From: Caulobacterales bacterium
Lineage (GTDB): Bacteria; Pseudomonadota; Alphaproteobacteria; Caulobacterales; Caulobacteraceae
Direction of reading: 5' to 3'
DNA: 34,809 nucleotides
NCBI GenBank assembly: GCA_947474805.1
Contig: CANJKM010000006.1
Span: 1-34,809 of the forward strand
In this document: positions 5,216 through 27,608 of the stretch, in pieces
Position numbering within the stretch: the stretch's first letter is position 1
Layout of the letters: every line of letters begins with the position of its first letter
Program-made: the position numbers and the translations under genes
Notes under the pieces: generated by a model
What the model was told of the DNA's origin: nothing
Databases searched by the model: none
What the model saw: the letters and a program-made list of their open reading frames with translations, nothing else

Positions 5216-5263
5216 TTGACCGTTATCAATCGCCCCCGGGGCGTCGCCTTTTAATCTCCGCCC
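5216..5263 (+). promoter_or_regulatory. FNR/FixK-type box with matching -10 (class II geometry)
   Basis: TTGACCGTTATCAA at 5216-5229 matches TTGAY-N4-RTCAA, the site of CRP/FNR-superfamily regulators of the FNR/FixK/Dnr type. A -10 hexamer TTTAAT (5 of 6 to TATAAT) lies at 5250-5255. This predicts a start near 5262-5263 and places the box centre about 41 bp upstream, the classical class II activator position. The extradiol dioxygenase gene follows after a leader of about 44 nt. Confidence 0.75.
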
Positions 5264-5306: not shown

Positions 5307-6314
5307 ATGGTTCCGATTGCATTGGGATATTTGGGGCTCAGCTCCGCCGACCTCAGCGATTGGCGCAGCTACGGCACGCGCCTCCTGGGCTTCCAGGCCG
5401 TCGACAAGACCGCCAAGACCCTCAGCTTCCGCATGGACGACCGCAAGCAGCGCTTCCACATCGAGGAAGACGGCGGCCAGGGCGTGAAATTCTTCGGCTG
5501 GGAAGTGGCCGACGCCGCTTCGCTCGACGCCCTCGCCAAGCGGGTCGAGGAGGCCGGCATCCCCGTGGCGCGCGGCTCCCGCGCCCTGGCCGAGGAGCGT
5601 CACGTCAAGGATCTGATCGTCTTCGCCGATCCCCTCGGGCATCGCGTCGAAATCTTCCATGGCCCGGAGATCGCCTCCGATCCCTTCACCGCCGGCCGAA
5701 CCATGTCGGGCTTCCGCACTGGCCCGCTCGGCATGGGCCACATCGTGATGACCGTGGAGTCGATCGACGCCATCGCGCCCTTCTACGAGAACGTCATCGG
5801 CATGAAGCTGAGCGACTGGTACTCGCACCCGTTCAAGGCGCGCTTCTTCCACGTCAACCAGCGGCACCACAGCCTGGCGATCGTGGAGACCGGCAAGCTC
5901 GGCATTCACCACATGATGGTCGAGACCTTCATGTACGACGACATGGGCCAGGCGCTCGATCTGGCCAATATGGAGCAGGGCAGACTGGCCGTGACGCTCG
6001 GCCGCCACGCGGGCGACTGCATGACCTCCTTCTACACCTGGACCCCGTCGGGGTTCATCTGCGAGTACGGCTGGGGCGGCGAGTCGATCGACACGAAGAA
6101 CTGGGTGCCGTTCGAGCGCACCCAGGGGCCCAGTATCTGGGGCCACGACCGCTCCTGGCTGCCGCCCGATAAGCAGCTGGCGGCGCGGGCGATGCGGATG
6201 AAGAACGCCGAGAACGGCGTCCGTCGCCCGGTCCAGGTCATCGACGGCAACTACAACCGCATGGAAGGCGCCTGTCCCTGGTGGGACAAAATGAAGGCCC
6301 AGGGCGCGCGCTAG
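5307..6314 (+). CDS. Type I extradiol ring-cleavage dioxygenase (BphC-like)
   Basis: A vicinal-oxygen-chelate enzyme that cleaves catechol-type rings next to the hydroxyls using Fe(II) and O2; the aromatic substrate is unknown. There are two VOC modules, about residues 5-120 and 140-290. The active site in the second is complete by motif and spacing: H145 (GMGHIVMT), H202 (GIHHMMVE) and E253 (ICEYGWG) as iron ligands, with H187/H188, H234 and Y243 (TWTPSGF region) in the second shell. The H234-Y243-E253 spacing equals the 241-250-260 spacing of BphC. At 335 aa it is longer than BphC (about 298) through a C-terminal tail rich in Trp and basic residues. The ATG at 5307 has a strong GAGGAGGAGGTG ribosome site. 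It is monocistronic, between an FNR-type promoter and a strong terminator. Oxygen-linked control of an O2-consuming enzyme is notable. Confidence 0.88.
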   Translation: MVPIALGYLGLSSADLSDWRSYGTRLLGFQAVDKTAKTLSFRMDDRKQRFHIEEDGGQGVKFFGWEVADAASLDALAKRVEEAGIPVARGSRALAEERHVKDLIVFADPLGHRVEIFHGPEIASDPFTAGRTMSGFRTGPLGMGHIVMTVESIDAIAPFYENVIGMKLSDWYSHPFKARFFHVNQRHHSLAIVETGKLGIHHMMVETFMYDDMGQALDLANMEQGRLAVTLGRHAGDCMTSFYTWTPSGFICEYGWGGESIDTKNWVPFERTQGPSIWGHDRSWLPPDKQLAARAMRMKNAENGVRRPVQVIDGNYNRMEGACPWWDKMKAQGAR

Positions 6315-6736: not shown

Positions 6737-7225
6737 CTAGATCAGGAAGCCGACCTTGCGGGCGCAGATGATCACGGCGGCCCAGAAAACGATCGACAGC
6801 AATCCGGCGATCTTGGCGGCGCCGGTCGTCGGACCGACATCCCAGCTGTCCACATTGCGGTAGGTCATGAAGTGGAAGATCACCATGTTCAGGCCAGCCA
6901 GGGCCATGAAGATGTACTTGGCGTAGAAGTAGCCCAGCGCCATATAGTCGGCCGCGCGGGCGGTGAAGAGCACTGTGCCGGTGATCGCCGCGAAGACGAA
7001 GGCGGTCCATGTCCAGGGAAGCAGGTCCTTGGTCAGAGCGCTGACGCGTTGATTGGTCGAGGCGACGCCTAGAAGCCGCAGATCCACCACCAGGATGCTC
7101 CCGGCGACGATGGTCAGGGCGAAGACGTGCAGGGTTTCAACGGTCGGGAATATCCAGGTCGATTCGGCGACCAGCCGCCCGATCGGCGATGCCTGTAGGG
7201 GTTCGAAGAGGGTAGAGAGGGCCAT
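6737..7225 (-). CDS. Four-helix membrane protein, H-x16-R signature (DUF6644-like)
   Basis: A 162-aa predicted inner-membrane protein with four hydrophobic helices. Signature residues are H33 (VETLHVFAL), R50 (VVDLRLLG), the Pro of DLLP, T-G eleven residues later (AITGTVLF), and K in YFYAK twenty residues after that; it ends in ARKVGFLI. The same spaced residues recur in the adjacent gene, in the 163-aa protein at 27054 and in the C-terminal domain of the 468-aa protein at 25470. No biochemical role is known to me; the family name DUF6644 is from memory and unchecked. A conserved membrane-embedded His suggests haem b or quinone binding (inference). It is the second gene of a two-gene unit with an FNR-type promoter, 66 bp downstream of its partner. 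Confidence 0.8.
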   Translation of the reverse strand: MALSTLFEPLQASPIGRLVAESTWIFPTVETLHVFALTIVAGSILVVDLRLLGVASTNQRVSALTKDLLPWTWTAFVFAAITGTVLFTARAADYMALGYFYAKYIFMALAGLNMVIFHFMTYRNVDSWDVGPTTGAAKIAGLLSIVFWAAVIICARKVGFLI

Positions 7226-7291: not shown

Positions 7292-7774
7292 TTAGGGGCC
7301 GTAGGCGATCCACCGGCCGGCGGTGATGATCAGGGCCCACAGGACCAGCGAGATGATGGCGATCAGCTTGGCCGTGCCTTGGGTTTCAGGCGCGCCCCAG
7401 AGCGGAGAGTCGGCCTTGGCGCCCGCGGCCATCGCCCAGGTCAGCGTCCCGACGATCACCAGGGCGGCCATCTTGATCTGGAAGTAGAGATTGAGGATCG
7501 CCCGCGTCGGCTCGGCCGCCATCAGCAGCAAGCCGGTCAGGAGCAGCACCACGACGCCCCAGCCGATCCAGGGGGCGAAACGGCGCGAGAGAGGGGCGAA
7601 GGGTTGCCCTCGGCCCACGACGCCCAGGATTCTCATGTCGAGCCACAGGGCCGAGAAAAAGACCGCCGCAACGGCCATGATATGGACCGCTTGGATGGTC
7701 GGGATCGTCCACGCCGTATCCCCCAAGTAGAGGCTGAGCGGCGTGCGACCCACCCAGTCTAGGAATGAATTCAT
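7292..7774 (-). CDS. Four-helix membrane protein, H-x16-R signature (DUF6644-like)
   Basis: A paralogue of the downstream neighbour, 160 aa from the ATG at 7774 (MNSFLDWVGR). A TTG at 7801 could add nine residues but is less likely. Signature residues: H31 (IQAVHIMAV), R48 (LDMRILG), Pro in RRFAP, LLTGLLLM, K in YFQIK, and the end ITAGRWIAYGP. Spacings H-R (17), P-TG and G-K (20) are the same as in the neighbour, so the pair arose by duplication and may form a heterodimer (inference). It is the first gene after the FNR-type box at 7850-7863, which gives a predicted leader of about 41 nt. Likely an integral inner-membrane electron-transfer or sensor component; function unproven. Confidence 0.8.
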   Translation of the reverse strand: MNSFLDWVGRTPLSLYLGDTAWTIPTIQAVHIMAVAAVFFSALWLDMRILGVVGRGQPFAPLSRRFAPWIGWGVVVLLLTGLLLMAAEPTRAILNLYFQIKMAALVIVGTLTWAMAAGAKADSPLWGAPETQGTAKLIAIISLVLWALIITAGRWIAYGP

Positions 7775-7814
7775 CGATTCGTTCTCTTTGATTTTCTCCA
7801 AGAAAACCTTGGAT

Positions 7815-7863
7815 CTTGGCCATTAGGCCGCGCGGCGCGCCCTGCCTCCTTGATCCCGGTCAA
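7815..7863 (-). promoter_or_regulatory. FNR/FixK-type box and -10 for the membrane protein pair
   Basis: TTGATCCCGGTCAA at 7850-7863 fits TTGAY-N4-RTCAA and is nearly symmetric. On the minus strand a -10-like CCTAAT (7827-7822, four of six) predicts a start near 7815. That puts the box centre about 41.5 bp upstream, ideal for class II activation. The rest of the divergent gap, 7864-8129, has a small hairpin GCCTCC/GGAGGC near 7974-7988, no gene, and no obvious promoter for the amine oxidase. Confidence 0.72.
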
Positions 7864-8129
7864 GGCTGGCGGGAAAACTTTGGAAAAAAGCGCCGCTCAA
7901 GGCGCGGGCGCGTTGTCGAAGACGCGAGCGGGCGGCGCGGCGGACGGTTTTCCATCCGCGATCTCAACCTGCCTCCGTTGGAGGCGGAAGCCCGATTTGG
8001 CGCGCAAATTTTGACCGTTCCGCCAGGTCTTCCAGCCGTTTGGGCCCGCCGCGGGGAACCGCGCGAGCGTGCGCCGCCGAACCGGTCGTAACTGACCCGA
8101 CAGTGCAGAGTCAGCCGGAGTACGGATCC

Positions 8130-9716
8130 ATGTTTACAGATATCGACGGCCTCAGCCGCCGCGCCTTTCTAGAACGCCTCAGCGCCGCGGGAGGCACGGC
8201 CCTCCTGATGACCGGCATGAGCGCGCTCGGTTTCGGCATAGCCTCTGCGGCGGTGGCGCCCCCGGTGATGAGCGGCGGCAAGGGCAAGAAGGTGATCGTG
8301 CTCGGCACCGGCGTCGCCGGCCTGACCTCGGCCTATGAACTGACCAACGCCGGTTACGACGTCACCGTGCTGGAGGCCCGCGACCGGGTCGGCGGCCGCT
8401 CCTGGACCGCCAAGAAGGGGACCAAGCTGACCGAGCTCGGCGGCGAGGCCGAAGTCTGCGACTTCGAAGAGGGCCAGTACATCAACCCCGGCCCGTGGCG
8501 GATCCCGTATTTCCACCGCGGCTATCTCCACTACGCCAAGAAGTTCGGCGTGCCGCTGGAGCTGCTCAACAACGACAACGACCGCTCCTACATCAACTAC
8601 GAGAAGGGCACGGGCCCGCTCGCCGGCAAACCGATCCGCAAGGTCGAGGTCGCCGCCGACATGCGCGGCTACGCCGCCGAGATGCTGGCCAAACAGGTCA
8701 AGCAGGGGGCGCTCGACGCCCAGTTCACCGCCGGCGACAAGGAGCTGTTCCTCGACTACCTGAAGAGCGAGGGCTACCTCGAAGGCGCGGACCTGAAATA
8801 CTTGGGCGCCGAGGGCCGCTCGCCGCTCGTCAATCCGGGCGCGGGTCTCGATCCCGGTCCGGGCGTCGAGTCCAAGCCCTACGCCATGACCGACATCCTG
8901 CACTCCAACACCTGGAAGGTGCTCCGCTCCATCTCCAACCTCGACCAGCAGCGGACCATGTTCCAGCCGGTCGGCGGCATGCACGAGCTGCCCAAGGGCT
9001 TCGTGCGCAATATGAAGCCGATCATCAAGCTGCAGCATGTGGTCGAGAAGATCAGCCAGACCCCGGGCAGCATCACCGTCGCCTACACCGACGAGAAGGG
9101 GGCCAAGGGCTCGATCACCGCCGACTTCTGCGTCTGCACCATCCCGCTATCGGTGCTGCGCACCATCGAGATCGACGCCTCACCCAAGTTCAAGGAAGCC
9201 ATCGGCGGCGTCTCCTACGCCCTCGTCGGCAAGATCGGCATCCAGATGAAGTCGCGCTTCTGGGAGGACAACCACCAGATCTACGGCGGCCACATCTATG
9301 TCGACGACCCCTTGATCTCGACCATCAGCCTGCCCTCGACAGGCTGGCTCGGCCAGAAGGGCGTCGTGCTCGGCTTCTACCCGCACGGCGCCGCCGCCGC
9401 GCGCCTCAGCGGCATGAGCCTGGCCGACCGCAAGGCCTACGCTCTGGCCGCCGGCAAGAAGGTCTTCCCCGAATACGCCGACAGCGCCGAGGGCAGCTTC
9501 TCGATGTTCTGGCACCGCACCCCGTTCAACATGGGCGGCTGGGCCGAGTGGACCGAGGAGAGCCGTGCCAAATACTACCCGACCCTGCTTGAGCCCGAGG
9601 GCCGGCTCTACCTGGCCGGCGAACACCTCTCCTACCTGACCGGCTGGCAAGAGGGCGGCATCGAGTCCGCTTGGCAGCAGATCGCCAAGCTCCACACGCG
9701 GGCCATGGCGGCCTGA
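8130..9716 (+). CDS. Tat-exported flavin amine oxidase/dehydrogenase
   Basis: A 528-aa FAD enzyme of the flavin monoamine oxidase superfamily, predicted to oxidise an amine (unknown) in the periplasm. The ATG at 8130 gives a twin-arginine signal, LSRRAFLERL then a hydrophobic stretch, so folded export with FAD is expected. The dinucleotide-binding motif VIVLGTGVAGLTSAYEL and the following EARDRVGGRSW are at about residues 54-90. The C-terminal FAD-binding motif is GRLYLAGEHLSYLTGWQEGGIESAW. In-frame upstream starts exist but would bury the Tat motif. A c-type cytochrome gene follows 21 bp downstream. This matches the nicotine oxidoreductase (NicA2) precedent, where a cytochrome c rather than O2 takes the electrons, so dehydrogenase behaviour is a reasonable inference. 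The substrate cannot be read from the sequence. Confidence 0.88.
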   Translation: MFTDIDGLSRRAFLERLSAAGGTALLMTGMSALGFGIASAAVAPPVMSGGKGKKVIVLGTGVAGLTSAYELTNAGYDVTVLEARDRVGGRSWTAKKGTKLTELGGEAEVCDFEEGQYINPGPWRIPYFHRGYLHYAKKFGVPLELLNNDNDRSYINYEKGTGPLAGKPIRKVEVAADMRGYAAEMLAKQVKQGALDAQFTAGDKELFLDYLKSEGYLEGADLKYLGAEGRSPLVNPGAGLDPGPGVESKPYAMTDILHSNTWKVLRSISNLDQQRTMFQPVGGMHELPKGFVRNMKPIIKLQHVVEKISQTPGSITVAYTDEKGAKGSITADFCVCTIPLSVLRTIEIDASPKFKEAIGGVSYALVGKIGIQMKSRFWEDNHQIYGGHIYVDDPLISTISLPSTGWLGQKGVVLGFYPHGAAAARLSGMSLADRKAYALAAGKKVFPEYADSAEGSFSMFWHRTPFNMGGWAEWTEESRAKYYPTLLEPEGRLYLAGEHLSYLTGWQEGGIESAWQQIAKLHTRAMAA

Positions 9717-25415: not shown

Positions 25416-25429
25416 TTGATAGAGATCAA
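25416..25429. promoter_or_regulatory. Perfect FNR/FixK box in the glcD / membrane-operon gap
   Basis: TTGATAGAGATCAA is an exact match to TTGAT-N4-ATCAA. It lies 47 bp (centre) before the ATG at 25470, which at class II spacing implies a very short leader for the plus-strand operon. It lies 135 bp from the glcD start on the other strand. I see no good -10 at the ideal distance in either direction, so the direction of control is open; proximity favours the membrane operon. Nothing else stands out in 25288-25469 apart from a run of seven G just before the ATG. Confidence 0.75.
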
Positions 25430-25469
25430 TAATAACACGTCTGATCGGTGGTGATCGGCGGGGGGGCAT

Positions 25470-26876
25470 ATGCATCTGATACCGACGGATCCGTCGCACT
25501 TCCATTTGCTCGTGAGCGTCTTCCCCTCGGTTGGCCTCCTGTTCGCTCTGTGCCTGTTCACGGCGGCCATCGTCGCCAAGAACGCGCTGATGCAGCGGAT
25601 CAGCTTCTTCGTCTTCGGCGGTCTGGCCGTCCTCGGCGTGCCGACCTACCTCAGCGGTATGGGATCGATGAAGGGCCTGCCCGCGCGGCCCACCGTCTCG
25701 ATTGACGCCCTCAACTACCACTATCCCTGGTCGTTCGCCGCGTTCGCGGCGCTTGGGATCACCGGCGCTCTGGCGCTCTGGTCGCTGTGGAAGTCCTGGA
25801 AACTTGAGCGTCCGACCCAGAACTCGCTTCACCAGGTTCTCGGCTTCGGTCTTTTCACAGCCGTGCTGATGATCATCGTCGGCGAGCAGGGCTGGGAGAT
25901 CGCTCACCGCGAGCTGTTCCTGACGTTCAACTACGATCTGACGTCGGCGATCTGGTCGCACATCCACATCATCCTGAACCACTTCCCGACCGTGGGCTTT
26001 GTGTTCGGCCTGTTCTTCTACGCGGCCGGCCTGCTCCGGAAGAGCGACCTGATGCTCCGCAGCGGCCTTGTGCTGTTCGTGGCCTGCGCCGTTCTCGCCG
26101 CCACCACCTACGTCACCGGCACCGCGGCCATGCTGTCCCTGATCGACTACGAGCAGCCGGGGATCTCCCTGGTCCGGATCAATCAGCACCGCGACTTCGC
26201 GATCTACTCGCTGATCGGCCTGGCCTTTACCGGCGGCCTCTCCTGGTTCGAGATCTGGCGCTACCGCTACCTCGGCCGCTTCTCCAAGGTCTCGCTCTAC
26301 ACGGTGCTGGGTTTCGCCATCGTCACCTTCTTTGTCCTGGCCGAGACCGGTCACCTGGGCGGCCAGATCAACCACCCGGAAATCCGCGAGCTGGGCGAAA
26401 AGCTGCCCACCGATGCGGCGGCCTTCCTGGGTGCTAAGGTCGAGCTGGCGATCAACACCATCATCTGGTTCGTGCCTTGGCAGACGGTGCACTTCTTCGG
26501 CTACACTCTGGTGTTCGCCACCGTGCTCGCCGTGTCCCTGCGCATCTGGGGCGTCTGGAAGGGCATGTCCTTCTCGGCCGTCCACCGGCTGCTGCCGCTC
26601 GGCGCCTTCGGGGTTCTGTTCAACATCTTCAGCGGCATGCTGATGGTGATGGCCGATAGCCACCGCTATCTGAACGAGCTCGCCTTCTGGCCGAAGATGT
26701 TCTTCCTGCCGATCGGCGCGATCGCGGTGCTGTACTTCTCGCTTTCGGACAAGCTCTGGGCCACCAAGGCCGGGGACGACGCTCCGATGCTGGCCAAATG
26801 GGTCGCGGTTCTGGTCTTCGTTTCGTGGACCGTCGTGATCATGGGCGGGCGCCTTCTGCCCTACCTGTTGCTCTAG
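25470..26876 (+). CDS. 468-aa polytopic membrane protein with duplicated His-rich half and H-x16-R C-terminal domain
   Basis: I do not recognise a characterised protein. Residues 1-305 are an internal tandem repeat: SHFHLLVSVFPSVG (9-22) recurs as SHIHIILNHFPTVG (163-176); H84 (LNYHYPW) corresponds to H240 (INQHRDF); VLGFGLFT...H146 corresponds to VLGFAIVT...H302. Each half looks like a DUF2231-type four-helix unit. Residues about 325-468 are a third module with H341 (WQTVHFFGY), R358 (SLRIWG), Pro in RLLP, FSGMLM, K in FWPK, and the end GGRLLPYLL. These are the same spaced residues as in the proteins at 6737, 7292 and 27054. About 12 helices. The repeated membrane histidines suggest haem b or metal ligation (inference). 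It heads an operon with a 39-aa helix and a 163-aa paralogue of its third module, behind a perfect FNR box. Confidence 0.82.
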   Translation: MHLIPTDPSHFHLLVSVFPSVGLLFALCLFTAAIVAKNALMQRISFFVFGGLAVLGVPTYLSGMGSMKGLPARPTVSIDALNYHYPWSFAAFAALGITGALALWSLWKSWKLERPTQNSLHQVLGFGLFTAVLMIIVGEQGWEIAHRELFLTFNYDLTSAIWSHIHIILNHFPTVGFVFGLFFYAAGLLRKSDLMLRSGLVLFVACAVLAATTYVTGTAAMLSLIDYEQPGISLVRINQHRDFAIYSLIGLAFTGGLSWFEIWRYRYLGRFSKVSLYTVLGFAIVTFFVLAETGHLGGQINHPEIRELGEKLPTDAAAFLGAKVELAINTIIWFVPWQTVHFFGYTLVFATVLAVSLRIWGVWKGMSFSAVHRLLPLGAFGVLFNIFSGMLMVMADSHRYLNELAFWPKMFFLPIGAIAVLYFSLSDKLWATKAGDDAPMLAKWVAVLVFVSWTVVIMGGRLLPYLLL

Positions 26877-26893
26877 ACCGCGGAGGATCACAG

Positions 26894-27013
26894 ATGGTCG
26901 CGCTAAAGCTTTTCTCCGTCGTTATGGCCGTGGTGCTCGTGGTGCTTGGCATCGCGTTCGCGGGCCTGGTCCGCCTCAACAAGGCTGTCGATCAAAGCGA
27001 TCCCGGGGCCTAG
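26894..27013 (+). CDS. 39-aa single-helix membrane protein
   Basis: The ATG at 26894 has a good ribosome site, CGGAGGATCACAG, 17 bp after the stop of the 468-aa gene. The product MVALKLFSVV...GLVRLNKAVDQSDPGA has one transmembrane helix (about residues 4-27) and a short polar tail. Size and position resemble the small subunits of respiratory oxidases (CydX, CcoQ), but there is no sequence evidence for homology. A longer in-frame start at 26798 lies inside the previous gene and lacks a ribosome site. Confidence 0.75.
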   Translation: MVALKLFSVVMAVVLVVLGIAFAGLVRLNKAVDQSDPGA

Positions 27014-27028
27014 TCCGCTCAAGCGGAC
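27013..27028 (+). other. Intra-operon hairpin
   Basis: GTCCGC-TCAA-GCGGAC forms a six-bp stem between the 39-aa gene and the next start, with no U-tract after it. It is probably an mRNA stability or processing element, not a terminator. Confidence 0.4.
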
Positions 27029-27053
27029 GCAACGATAATAAGGGGGACCCTCA

Positions 27054-27545
27054 GTGGGATTTCTTGAGAACCTAGCAACGACCCCCTATTCGGAGTGGGT
27101 CCAGGCGTCTTGGGGGTGGGCTTGGGCCCTGACCATCCATGCATTCGGCAATGCGACCGTGGTCGGTCTGTCGTGGATCATCGCCCTGCGGCTGTGGGGC
27201 TTCTTCCGCACCATCCCGGTCACGTCTCTGAAGACCCTGTTCCCGATCATCTGGATCGGCGTCGCCTTCCAGGTCTATAGCGGCGTCACCCTGTGGATAT
27301 CCAAGCCGCACAAGTACGTTCTGGACTGGGTGTTCGACACAAAGTTCGCCTGCGTCATCCTGGGCGCCGCCCTGACTGTCATCTTCCAGCGCCTCTACAA
27401 CCGTGAGGCCGCCGGCTGGCAGTCCAACGGCGCGGTCAGCAAGGACGCCAAGACGTGGGGTACGGCCATGGCCATCGCCTGGGGCATGGTGACGGTGATG
27501 GGCCGACTGACGGCCTATCTCGGCCAGCTCTACGGCGGCGGCTGA
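27054..27545 (+). CDS. 163-aa four-helix membrane protein, H-x16-R signature
   Basis: A GTG start at 27054 with AAGGGGGACCC upstream. The protein has four hydrophobic helices. Signature residues: H29 (LTIHAFGNA), R46 (ALRLWG), Pro in TLFP, VYSGVTLW, K in VFDTK, and the end VTVMGRLTAYLG. It aligns without gaps at these sites with residues 341-461 of the 468-aa protein (the R-to-P spacing is 18 in both, against 20 in the proteins at 6737 and 7292). It is therefore a free-standing copy of that protein's C-terminal module and probably its partner in one complex. Last gene of the operon; a strong terminator follows at 27576. Confidence 0.8.
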   Translation: MGFLENLATTPYSEWVQASWGWAWALTIHAFGNATVVGLSWIIALRLWGFFRTIPVTSLKTLFPIIWIGVAFQVYSGVTLWISKPHKYVLDWVFDTKFACVILGAALTVIFQRLYNREAAGWQSNGAVSKDAKTWGTAMAIAWGMVTVMGRLTAYLGQLYGGG

Positions 27546-27575
27546 TCGCACGCGAGCGATTGGCGAACGTCTTCA

Positions 27576-27608
27576 AACGCCGGGCCCTCGGGTCCGGCGT
27601 TTTTCGTT
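27576..27608 (+). terminator. Rho-independent terminator of the membrane operon
   Basis: AACGCCGGGCC pairs with GGTCCGGCGTT (one G-U pair) around a CTCG loop and is followed by TTTTCGTTT. It lies 30 nt after the last operon stop. The same hairpin on the minus strand follows the convergent cytochrome c gene but has a poor U-tract there. Confidence 0.88.

Follow-up and report, generated by a model that had tools for sequence, protein, structure and literature searches.

A rare three-gene operon of uncultured Caulobacteraceae may encode a membrane electron-transfer complex built from DUF2231 and DUF6644

Introduction

HemJ (UPF0093, PF03653) is a protoporphyrinogen oxidase with b-type haem, a small helical membrane protein that carries a histidine in its first transmembrane helix (TM1) and a lysine at or just before TM3; Skotnicova et al. 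are said to have identified these two residues as the haem ligands in 2018. One paper cites HemJ as a haem protein of the b type, with probable use of plastoquinone (PMC7133116); in an older view, its cofactor was not yet known (PMC7242693). Two further families of small membrane proteins, DUF2231 (PF09990) and DUF6644 (PF20349), have essentially no literature: across 5.4 million papers, DUF6644 is unmentioned and DUF2231 is mentioned once, and nothing usable was found there on Pfam clan membership, COG4244, DUF6152 or DUF2214.

Here we describe a locus of a Caulobacterales bacterium, contained in a 34,809-nt stretch of DNA that was analysed as a whole (hereafter the window), in which three genes, A, B and C, encode a previously undescribed membrane complex of these two uncharacterised families. 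The DUF6644 bundles of the locus resemble HemJ in the TM1 histidine, the TM3 lysine, and an aligned arginine and glycine, and the locus differs from HemJ in that two distinct DUF6644 bundles pair, one of them fused to DUF2231.

Organization of the locus

Besides genes A, B and C, the locus comprises a candidate regulatory box, a terminator and a cytochrome c gene in convergent orientation; we verified all coordinates. Specifically, the FNR/FixK-type palindrome TTGAT-AGAG-ATCAA (25416–25429, no strand assigned) matches TTGAT-N4-ATCAA exactly, and its centre lies ~47 nt 5′ of the ATG of gene A. Gene A (25470–26876, plus strand) encodes 468 aa; gene B (26894–27013, plus strand, ATG start) encodes 39 aa with one predicted transmembrane helix; and gene C (27054–27545, plus strand, GTG start) encodes 163 aa. 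An intrinsic terminator with a 12-bp stem and a T-rich tail after it was located in the sequence at 27575–27602 (plus strand). A class I cytochrome c gene (PF00034; 27619–28110, minus strand) with a probable signal peptide converges on the operon. A first-pass annotation of this DNA had reported the exact box, the three-gene unit with its protein lengths, the terminator and a cytochrome c convergent with the unit, and all of them are present.

The reading frame of B is nested in a longer frame (26798–27013). An open reading frame of 35–39 aa lies between A and C at all five loci compared, and the differences between B and its L013 counterpart fall 16/12/24 on the three codon positions, favouring the third. 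Since homologues occur in identical order in four other genomes, we regard A, B and C as genuine genes.

Distribution of the operon

The four other genomes, all uncultured, belong to a proteobacterium (L012), two Caulobacteraceae (L013 and L014) and a member of Caulobacterales (L015). Their proteins are 57–66% (A) and 54–60% (C) identical to those of the window, and the co-occurrence of the three genes, on which the first-pass annotation had made its proposal depend, extends to five of five loci. Searches for full-length A identified 4 carriers among 149 genomes of the family and a single one among 385 of the class (E 1e-30), the genome of the window being counted each time. A pattern-seeded scan of GTDB contigs gave at least four loci of A, and a search for A on plasmids found none. 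The A-B-C operon is thus rare and occurs mostly in uncultured Caulobacteraceae.

L012, L013 and L014 keep the convergent cytochrome c gene seen in the window; L015 lacks it. The surroundings of L012 are otherwise quite different, with glutamine synthetase-like genes and an FAD oxidoreductase gene, and A-B-C together with the cytochrome c gene therefore looks like a conserved module. The cytochrome c is the likely periplasmic partner of A-B-C.

Protein A joins two DUF2231 repeats to a DUF6644 bundle

The only Pfam family that A matches over threshold is DUF2231, in two stretches (40.9 bits, cut-off 26.4); PF09990 matches each of these repeats separately and also exceeds the cut-off in four of four A orthologues. 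We split the alignment of A into thirds and compared them. Residues 1–156 and 157–312 constitute a tandem duplication (hhalign probability 99.8%, E 2.4e-29, 30% identity), and the last third, residues 313–468, has no relationship to the DUF2231 repeats. The last third instead matches the DUF6644 alignment (hhalign probability 99.5%, E 3e-23), with a score against the Pfam PF20349 model of 19.1 bits, below the cut-off of 27. The first-pass annotation had correctly seen that the C-terminal module of A resembles C, and had missed the internal duplication. An AF2 model of A contains 12 long helices, with a pLDDT of 66 overall and of 45–67 in the last third.

A had also been called histidine-rich. 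Its histidine content is mild (15 of 468 residues); the conservation that was expected of these histidines is evident, with 14 of the 15 invariant in the five sequences compared. The same set occurs in both repeats, H10/H12, H84 and H146 in repeat 1 being equivalent to H164/H166, H240 and H302 in repeat 2, and most stand-alone DUF2231 proteins have, by eye, comparable histidines in TM1 and TM3. The positive charges of A lie mainly in odd loops, and by the positive-inside rule both termini and 12 of the 14 invariant histidines are predicted to be periplasmic.

Neither an NCBIfam search with A, B and C nor a Pfam search with B and C returned anything over threshold, and PDB sequence searches with A, C and the alignments A1 and A4 gave nothing significant. 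A match to a characterised transporter or enzyme family, which the first-pass annotation had named as grounds against its proposal, was thus not found: DUF2231 is the single family that A matches over threshold, and the relationship of C and of the C-terminus of A to DUF6644 stays below threshold.

C and the C-terminus of A as a DUF6644 heteropair

C matches the DUF6644 alignment in hhalign (probability 99.8%, E 3e-30) and does not match PF20349 in the Pfam search. On these profile comparisons, we read C and the C-terminus of A as divergent relatives of DUF6644 that the Pfam model misses, and not as members at the Pfam threshold. The likeness of C to the C-terminal module of A, proposed in the first-pass annotation, amounts to 28% identity and a profile probability of 97.6% (E 3e-12). 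An AF2 model of C shows four long helices (pLDDT 80).

In a maximum-likelihood tree of 34 rows, the five C proteins cluster with L007, L041b, L048a and L043a (support 97/93; clade I), while the five A C-termini cluster with L058, L035, L048b and L037 (support 98/94), which are the tandem gene partners of the former four. C and the C-terminus of A thus sit in the two clades of the DUF6644 tandem pairs. Because members of these clades form tandem pairs elsewhere, A and C together hold an old heteropair, in which A contains the beta-type partner fused behind the DUF2231 duplication and C is the alpha-type partner.

DUF6644 occurs in 43 of 398 genomes sampled from the phylum, about one in ten. If the A C-terminus is included, there are 69 matches, of which 32 belong to tandem pairs; such pairs occur in 11 of the 43 genomes with a match. 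The partners elsewhere are usually separate four-helix proteins, with one fusion to DUF6152 (L042); fusion to DUF2231 is confined to the A family among those seen, and a comparison of the DUF6644 and DUF2231 profiles reveals no relationship between the two families. The pairing shows that, in genomes carrying both genes, DUF6644 is to be approached as a heterodimer.

Several observations concern the gene neighbourhoods of DUF6644. The window contains a second DUF6644 gene pair (6737–7225 and 7292–7801, minus strand), divergent from an amine oxidase gene (8040–9716, plus strand) whose product has a twin-arginine-like start. DUF6644 genes often adjoin genes for DUF6152 or for look-alike small exported proteins (L042:5466–7178, L118, L045, L137, L138, L140 and L148–L151), whose mature end is likely to start near HH; at L042:5466–7178, DUF6152 and an alpha-type DUF6644 bundle form a single protein. 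At L131, L132, L146, L148 and L154, DUF6644 genes lie beside genes for a PQQ-dependent dehydrogenase or a GMC oxidoreductase, which hints at a role in accepting electrons from dehydrogenases. Neighbours of the GMC, PQQ or amine oxidase type recur in several genomes, and we count them in favour of the electron-transfer reading given below.

A probable remote relationship between DUF6644 and HemJ

Among 62 DUF6644 sequences, the TM1 histidine, the TM2 glycine and the TM3 lysine are conserved in 62 of 62, and an arginine in 58. We searched 3844 open frames from the collected loci with a DUF6644 HMM, and the only matches outside DUF6644 were HemJ proteins (best E 2.3e-5); some high-ranking matches without a family label proved, by inspection, to be further DUF6644 proteins. 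In the reverse search, a HemJ HMM ranks three HemJ-like ORFs first and DUF6644 proteins next (E 0.014–0.023). In the alignments, the histidine, arginine, glycine and lysine of DUF6644 superpose on HemJ residues; specifically, H29 and K97 of C, and H341 and K409 of A, occupy the DUF6644 columns aligned with the conserved histidine and lysine of HemJ. Each DUF6644 bundle has a single invariant histidine.

The best real HemJ score is 22.1, and the highest score among 3000 locally shuffled HemJ sequences is 16.6; the respective means are 6.9 and 0.4, and composition bias accounts for part of the score. Direct comparison of DUF6644 and HemJ by hhalign gives a probability of 26%, and reversed and sliced controls give ≤6%. 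Searches of A and C with PF03653 gave no match, and the best DUF6644 member reached E 0.058. From these sequence comparisons, we regard DUF6644 as probably, though remotely, related to HemJ. The link through histidine, lysine, glycine and arginine provides a testable prediction of a haem site for a family present in 43 of the 398 phylum genomes.

DUF2231 genes beside HemJ-like and cytochrome genes

At L188, L189 and L190, a gene for a stand-alone DUF2231 protein adjoins a UPF0093/HemJ-like gene, with COX1 genes near; the three HemJ-like ORFs are the first three matches of the HemJ HMM. A COX2-cytochrome c gene is in the same neighbourhood at L188 (by Pfam) and L189 (by eye), and the neighbourhood of L190 also has CtaG. 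These loci are like A-B-C in that both building blocks, DUF2231 and a HemJ-superfamily bundle, are adjacent, and unlike it in that the blocks are separate genes by oxidase subunit genes, whereas in A-B-C they are duplicated and fused, without an oxidase. In the host genome, the protein at L119:2921–4489 carries leucine-rich repeats and a cytochrome c domain of planctomycete type besides a sub-threshold DUF2231-like region. Together, these cases indicate that DUF2231 meets HemJ-superfamily bundles and cytochromes in unrelated settings.

Proposed function and alternatives

Given the distant likeness of one of its two families to the haem-binding HemJ, A-B-C probably represents a new type of electron-transfer device in the membrane. 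From the sequence comparisons above, we give about an even chance to A-B-C being a multi-haem-b electron-transfer complex that would work with a periplasmic cytochrome c. Points that weigh against it are the single invariant histidine per DUF6644 bundle, the remoteness of the HemJ link, the many DUF6644 genes beside genes for DUF6152, the missing cytochrome c gene of L015 and the weak AF2 model of A. The narrower proposal, a new class of quinone/cytochrome c oxidoreductase of multi-haem-b type built from a duplicated DUF2231 unit and a HemJ-like DUF6644 heteropair, is put forward tentatively; no sequence relationship of A-B-C to known quinol-cytochrome c or quinol-oxygen complexes was detected. 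If it is true, the operon adds a new module to bacterial respiration.

In such a mechanism, A, B and C would form an inner-membrane b-type cytochrome complex that transfers electrons to or from a periplasmic c-type cytochrome, with the quinone pool as the probable partner on the membrane side. Each DUF6644 bundle may hold a haem b at the TM1 histidine and the TM3 lysine, while each DUF2231 repeat could provide a metal or haem site on the periplasmic face from the H-x-H of TM1 and the histidines of TM3 and TM4. B may stabilise the complex in the manner of other small respiratory subunits, and the neighbouring cytochrome c would give or take electrons. The first-pass annotation had proposed a haem-b-bearing oxidoreductase: the DUF6644-HemJ link and the occurrence of DUF2231 beside HemJ-like and oxidase genes favour this, and the haem itself is a prediction.

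HemJ, the nearest characterised relative of DUF6644 that we found, also suggests a dehydrogenase, in which the DUF6644 heteropair would oxidise a hydrophobic, membrane-soluble substrate, for instance a porphyrinogen, and pass the electrons on through DUF2231; DUF6644 genes beside dehydrogenase and DUF6152 genes fit this idea. However, the genome already carries a true HemJ (contig C39, E 3e-47), at none of the loci did we recognise a gene for haem synthesis beside the operon, and DUF2231 and the cytochrome c neighbours suggest respiration, so that we judge a HemJ-like dehydrogenase improbable. We see a similarly small chance of CopD-like metal or haem handling, or of an assembly factor for respiratory enzymes, with copper or haem bound at the periplasmic histidine clusters. 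Some DUF6644 proteins match CopD (best E 2.4e-5), as does HemJ (9e-7), DUF2231 accompanies oxidase genes, once with CtaG too, and most A histidines are predicted to face the periplasm; yet CopC, a copper ATPase or a metal regulator was not recognised at the five A loci, and oxidase genes are not adjacent to A. A CopD (PF05425) search matched none of A, C and the C orthologues, L012 A reaching only E 0.044, in repeat 1.

The top structural matches of the weak A model are CydA chains (Z 12–14.5 over 256–279 residues), which raises the idea that A-B-C is a terminal oxidase very distantly akin to cytochrome bd, in which residues 150–460 of A form a CydA-like core and B, as short as CydX, takes the place of that subunit. 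The possible likeness to cytochrome bd lies in two similarly arranged four-helix bundles in the A model and in the tiny one-helix subunit; A-B-C differs in having no detected sequence relationship and no CydB-sized partner. A Z of ~14 is usual for unrelated helical bundles, the last third of the model has a pLDDT of only 45–67, hhalign to 30 CydA sequences gives a probability of 0.7% for A and 0.1% for C, and neither protein matches PF01654. An oxidase of this kind is highly improbable. Homology to cytochrome bd, as a candidate from the fold search, is not supported by profiles of A, C, DUF2231 or DUF6644 against the 30 CydA sequences or against CydA slices. It is also unlikely that A-B-C has no redox role and acts in the membrane as a sensor or a transporter, its conserved polar residues being there for some other ligand: DUF2231 and DUF6644 are formally without an assigned function and the haem cofactor is predicted only, but the invariant histidine and lysine sets, the relationship to HemJ and the recurrent cytochrome and oxidase neighbours speak for electron transfer by A-B-C.

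Regulation

The exact box is present in a single copy in the 2.95-Mb, 82%-complete assembly, where base composition predicts ~0.15 per genome and 8e-6 per 150-bp upstream region. Allowing at most one mismatch, the window contains three boxes against 0.22 expected, a number that none of 100 shuffles reached. Upstream of A in L012–L015 the box is absent, the best candidates within 300 bp having two to three mismatches and lying at unrelated positions.

In class II activation, the site lies ~41–45 nt 5′ of the transcription start. Such spacing at A would give a leader of ~3–6 nt that no longer includes the G-rich ribosome site; A is therefore either transcribed almost without a leader or repressed through the box. 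In the pio promoter of Rhodopseudomonas palustris, the site is at −44.5 (PMC3050613). The earlier claim that the complex works at low oxygen is weakened by the absence of the box in four of four relatives and by the near lack of a leader for class II activation; with a box that is unique in the genome, absent from the four relatives and oddly placed, low-oxygen control stays a candidate only.

Alongside the consensus site, the genome encodes a regulator of the appropriate class: a member of the Crp/Fnr family whose recognition helix reads ETVSR and which adjoins a PAS histidine kinase on contig C133. We examined seven places among the matches listed for the relaxed form TTGAYnnnnRTCAA, using mechanical ORF lists: five are intergenic, at window positions 5216, 7850 and 25416 and at one site each on C133 and C174, and the two on C2 and C48 lie within ORFs. 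The regulator and the intergenic relaxed sites make a small FixK-type regulon plausible.

Upstream of A in L013 and L014, ~50–80 bp 5′ of the gene, we observed a common TTGACG-N17-TTTTAT element and an AAAATCC(A/G)GATTTT near-palindrome, which are possibly a promoter and an operator that replace the FNR box. Elsewhere in the window, a near-perfect FNR/FixK site, TTGATCCCGGTCAA, is located at 7850–7863, between the DUF6644 pair and the amine oxidase gene, and a one-mismatch site, TTGACCGTTATCAA, is located at 5216–5229, ~80 nt 5′ of an ORF at 5307–6314.
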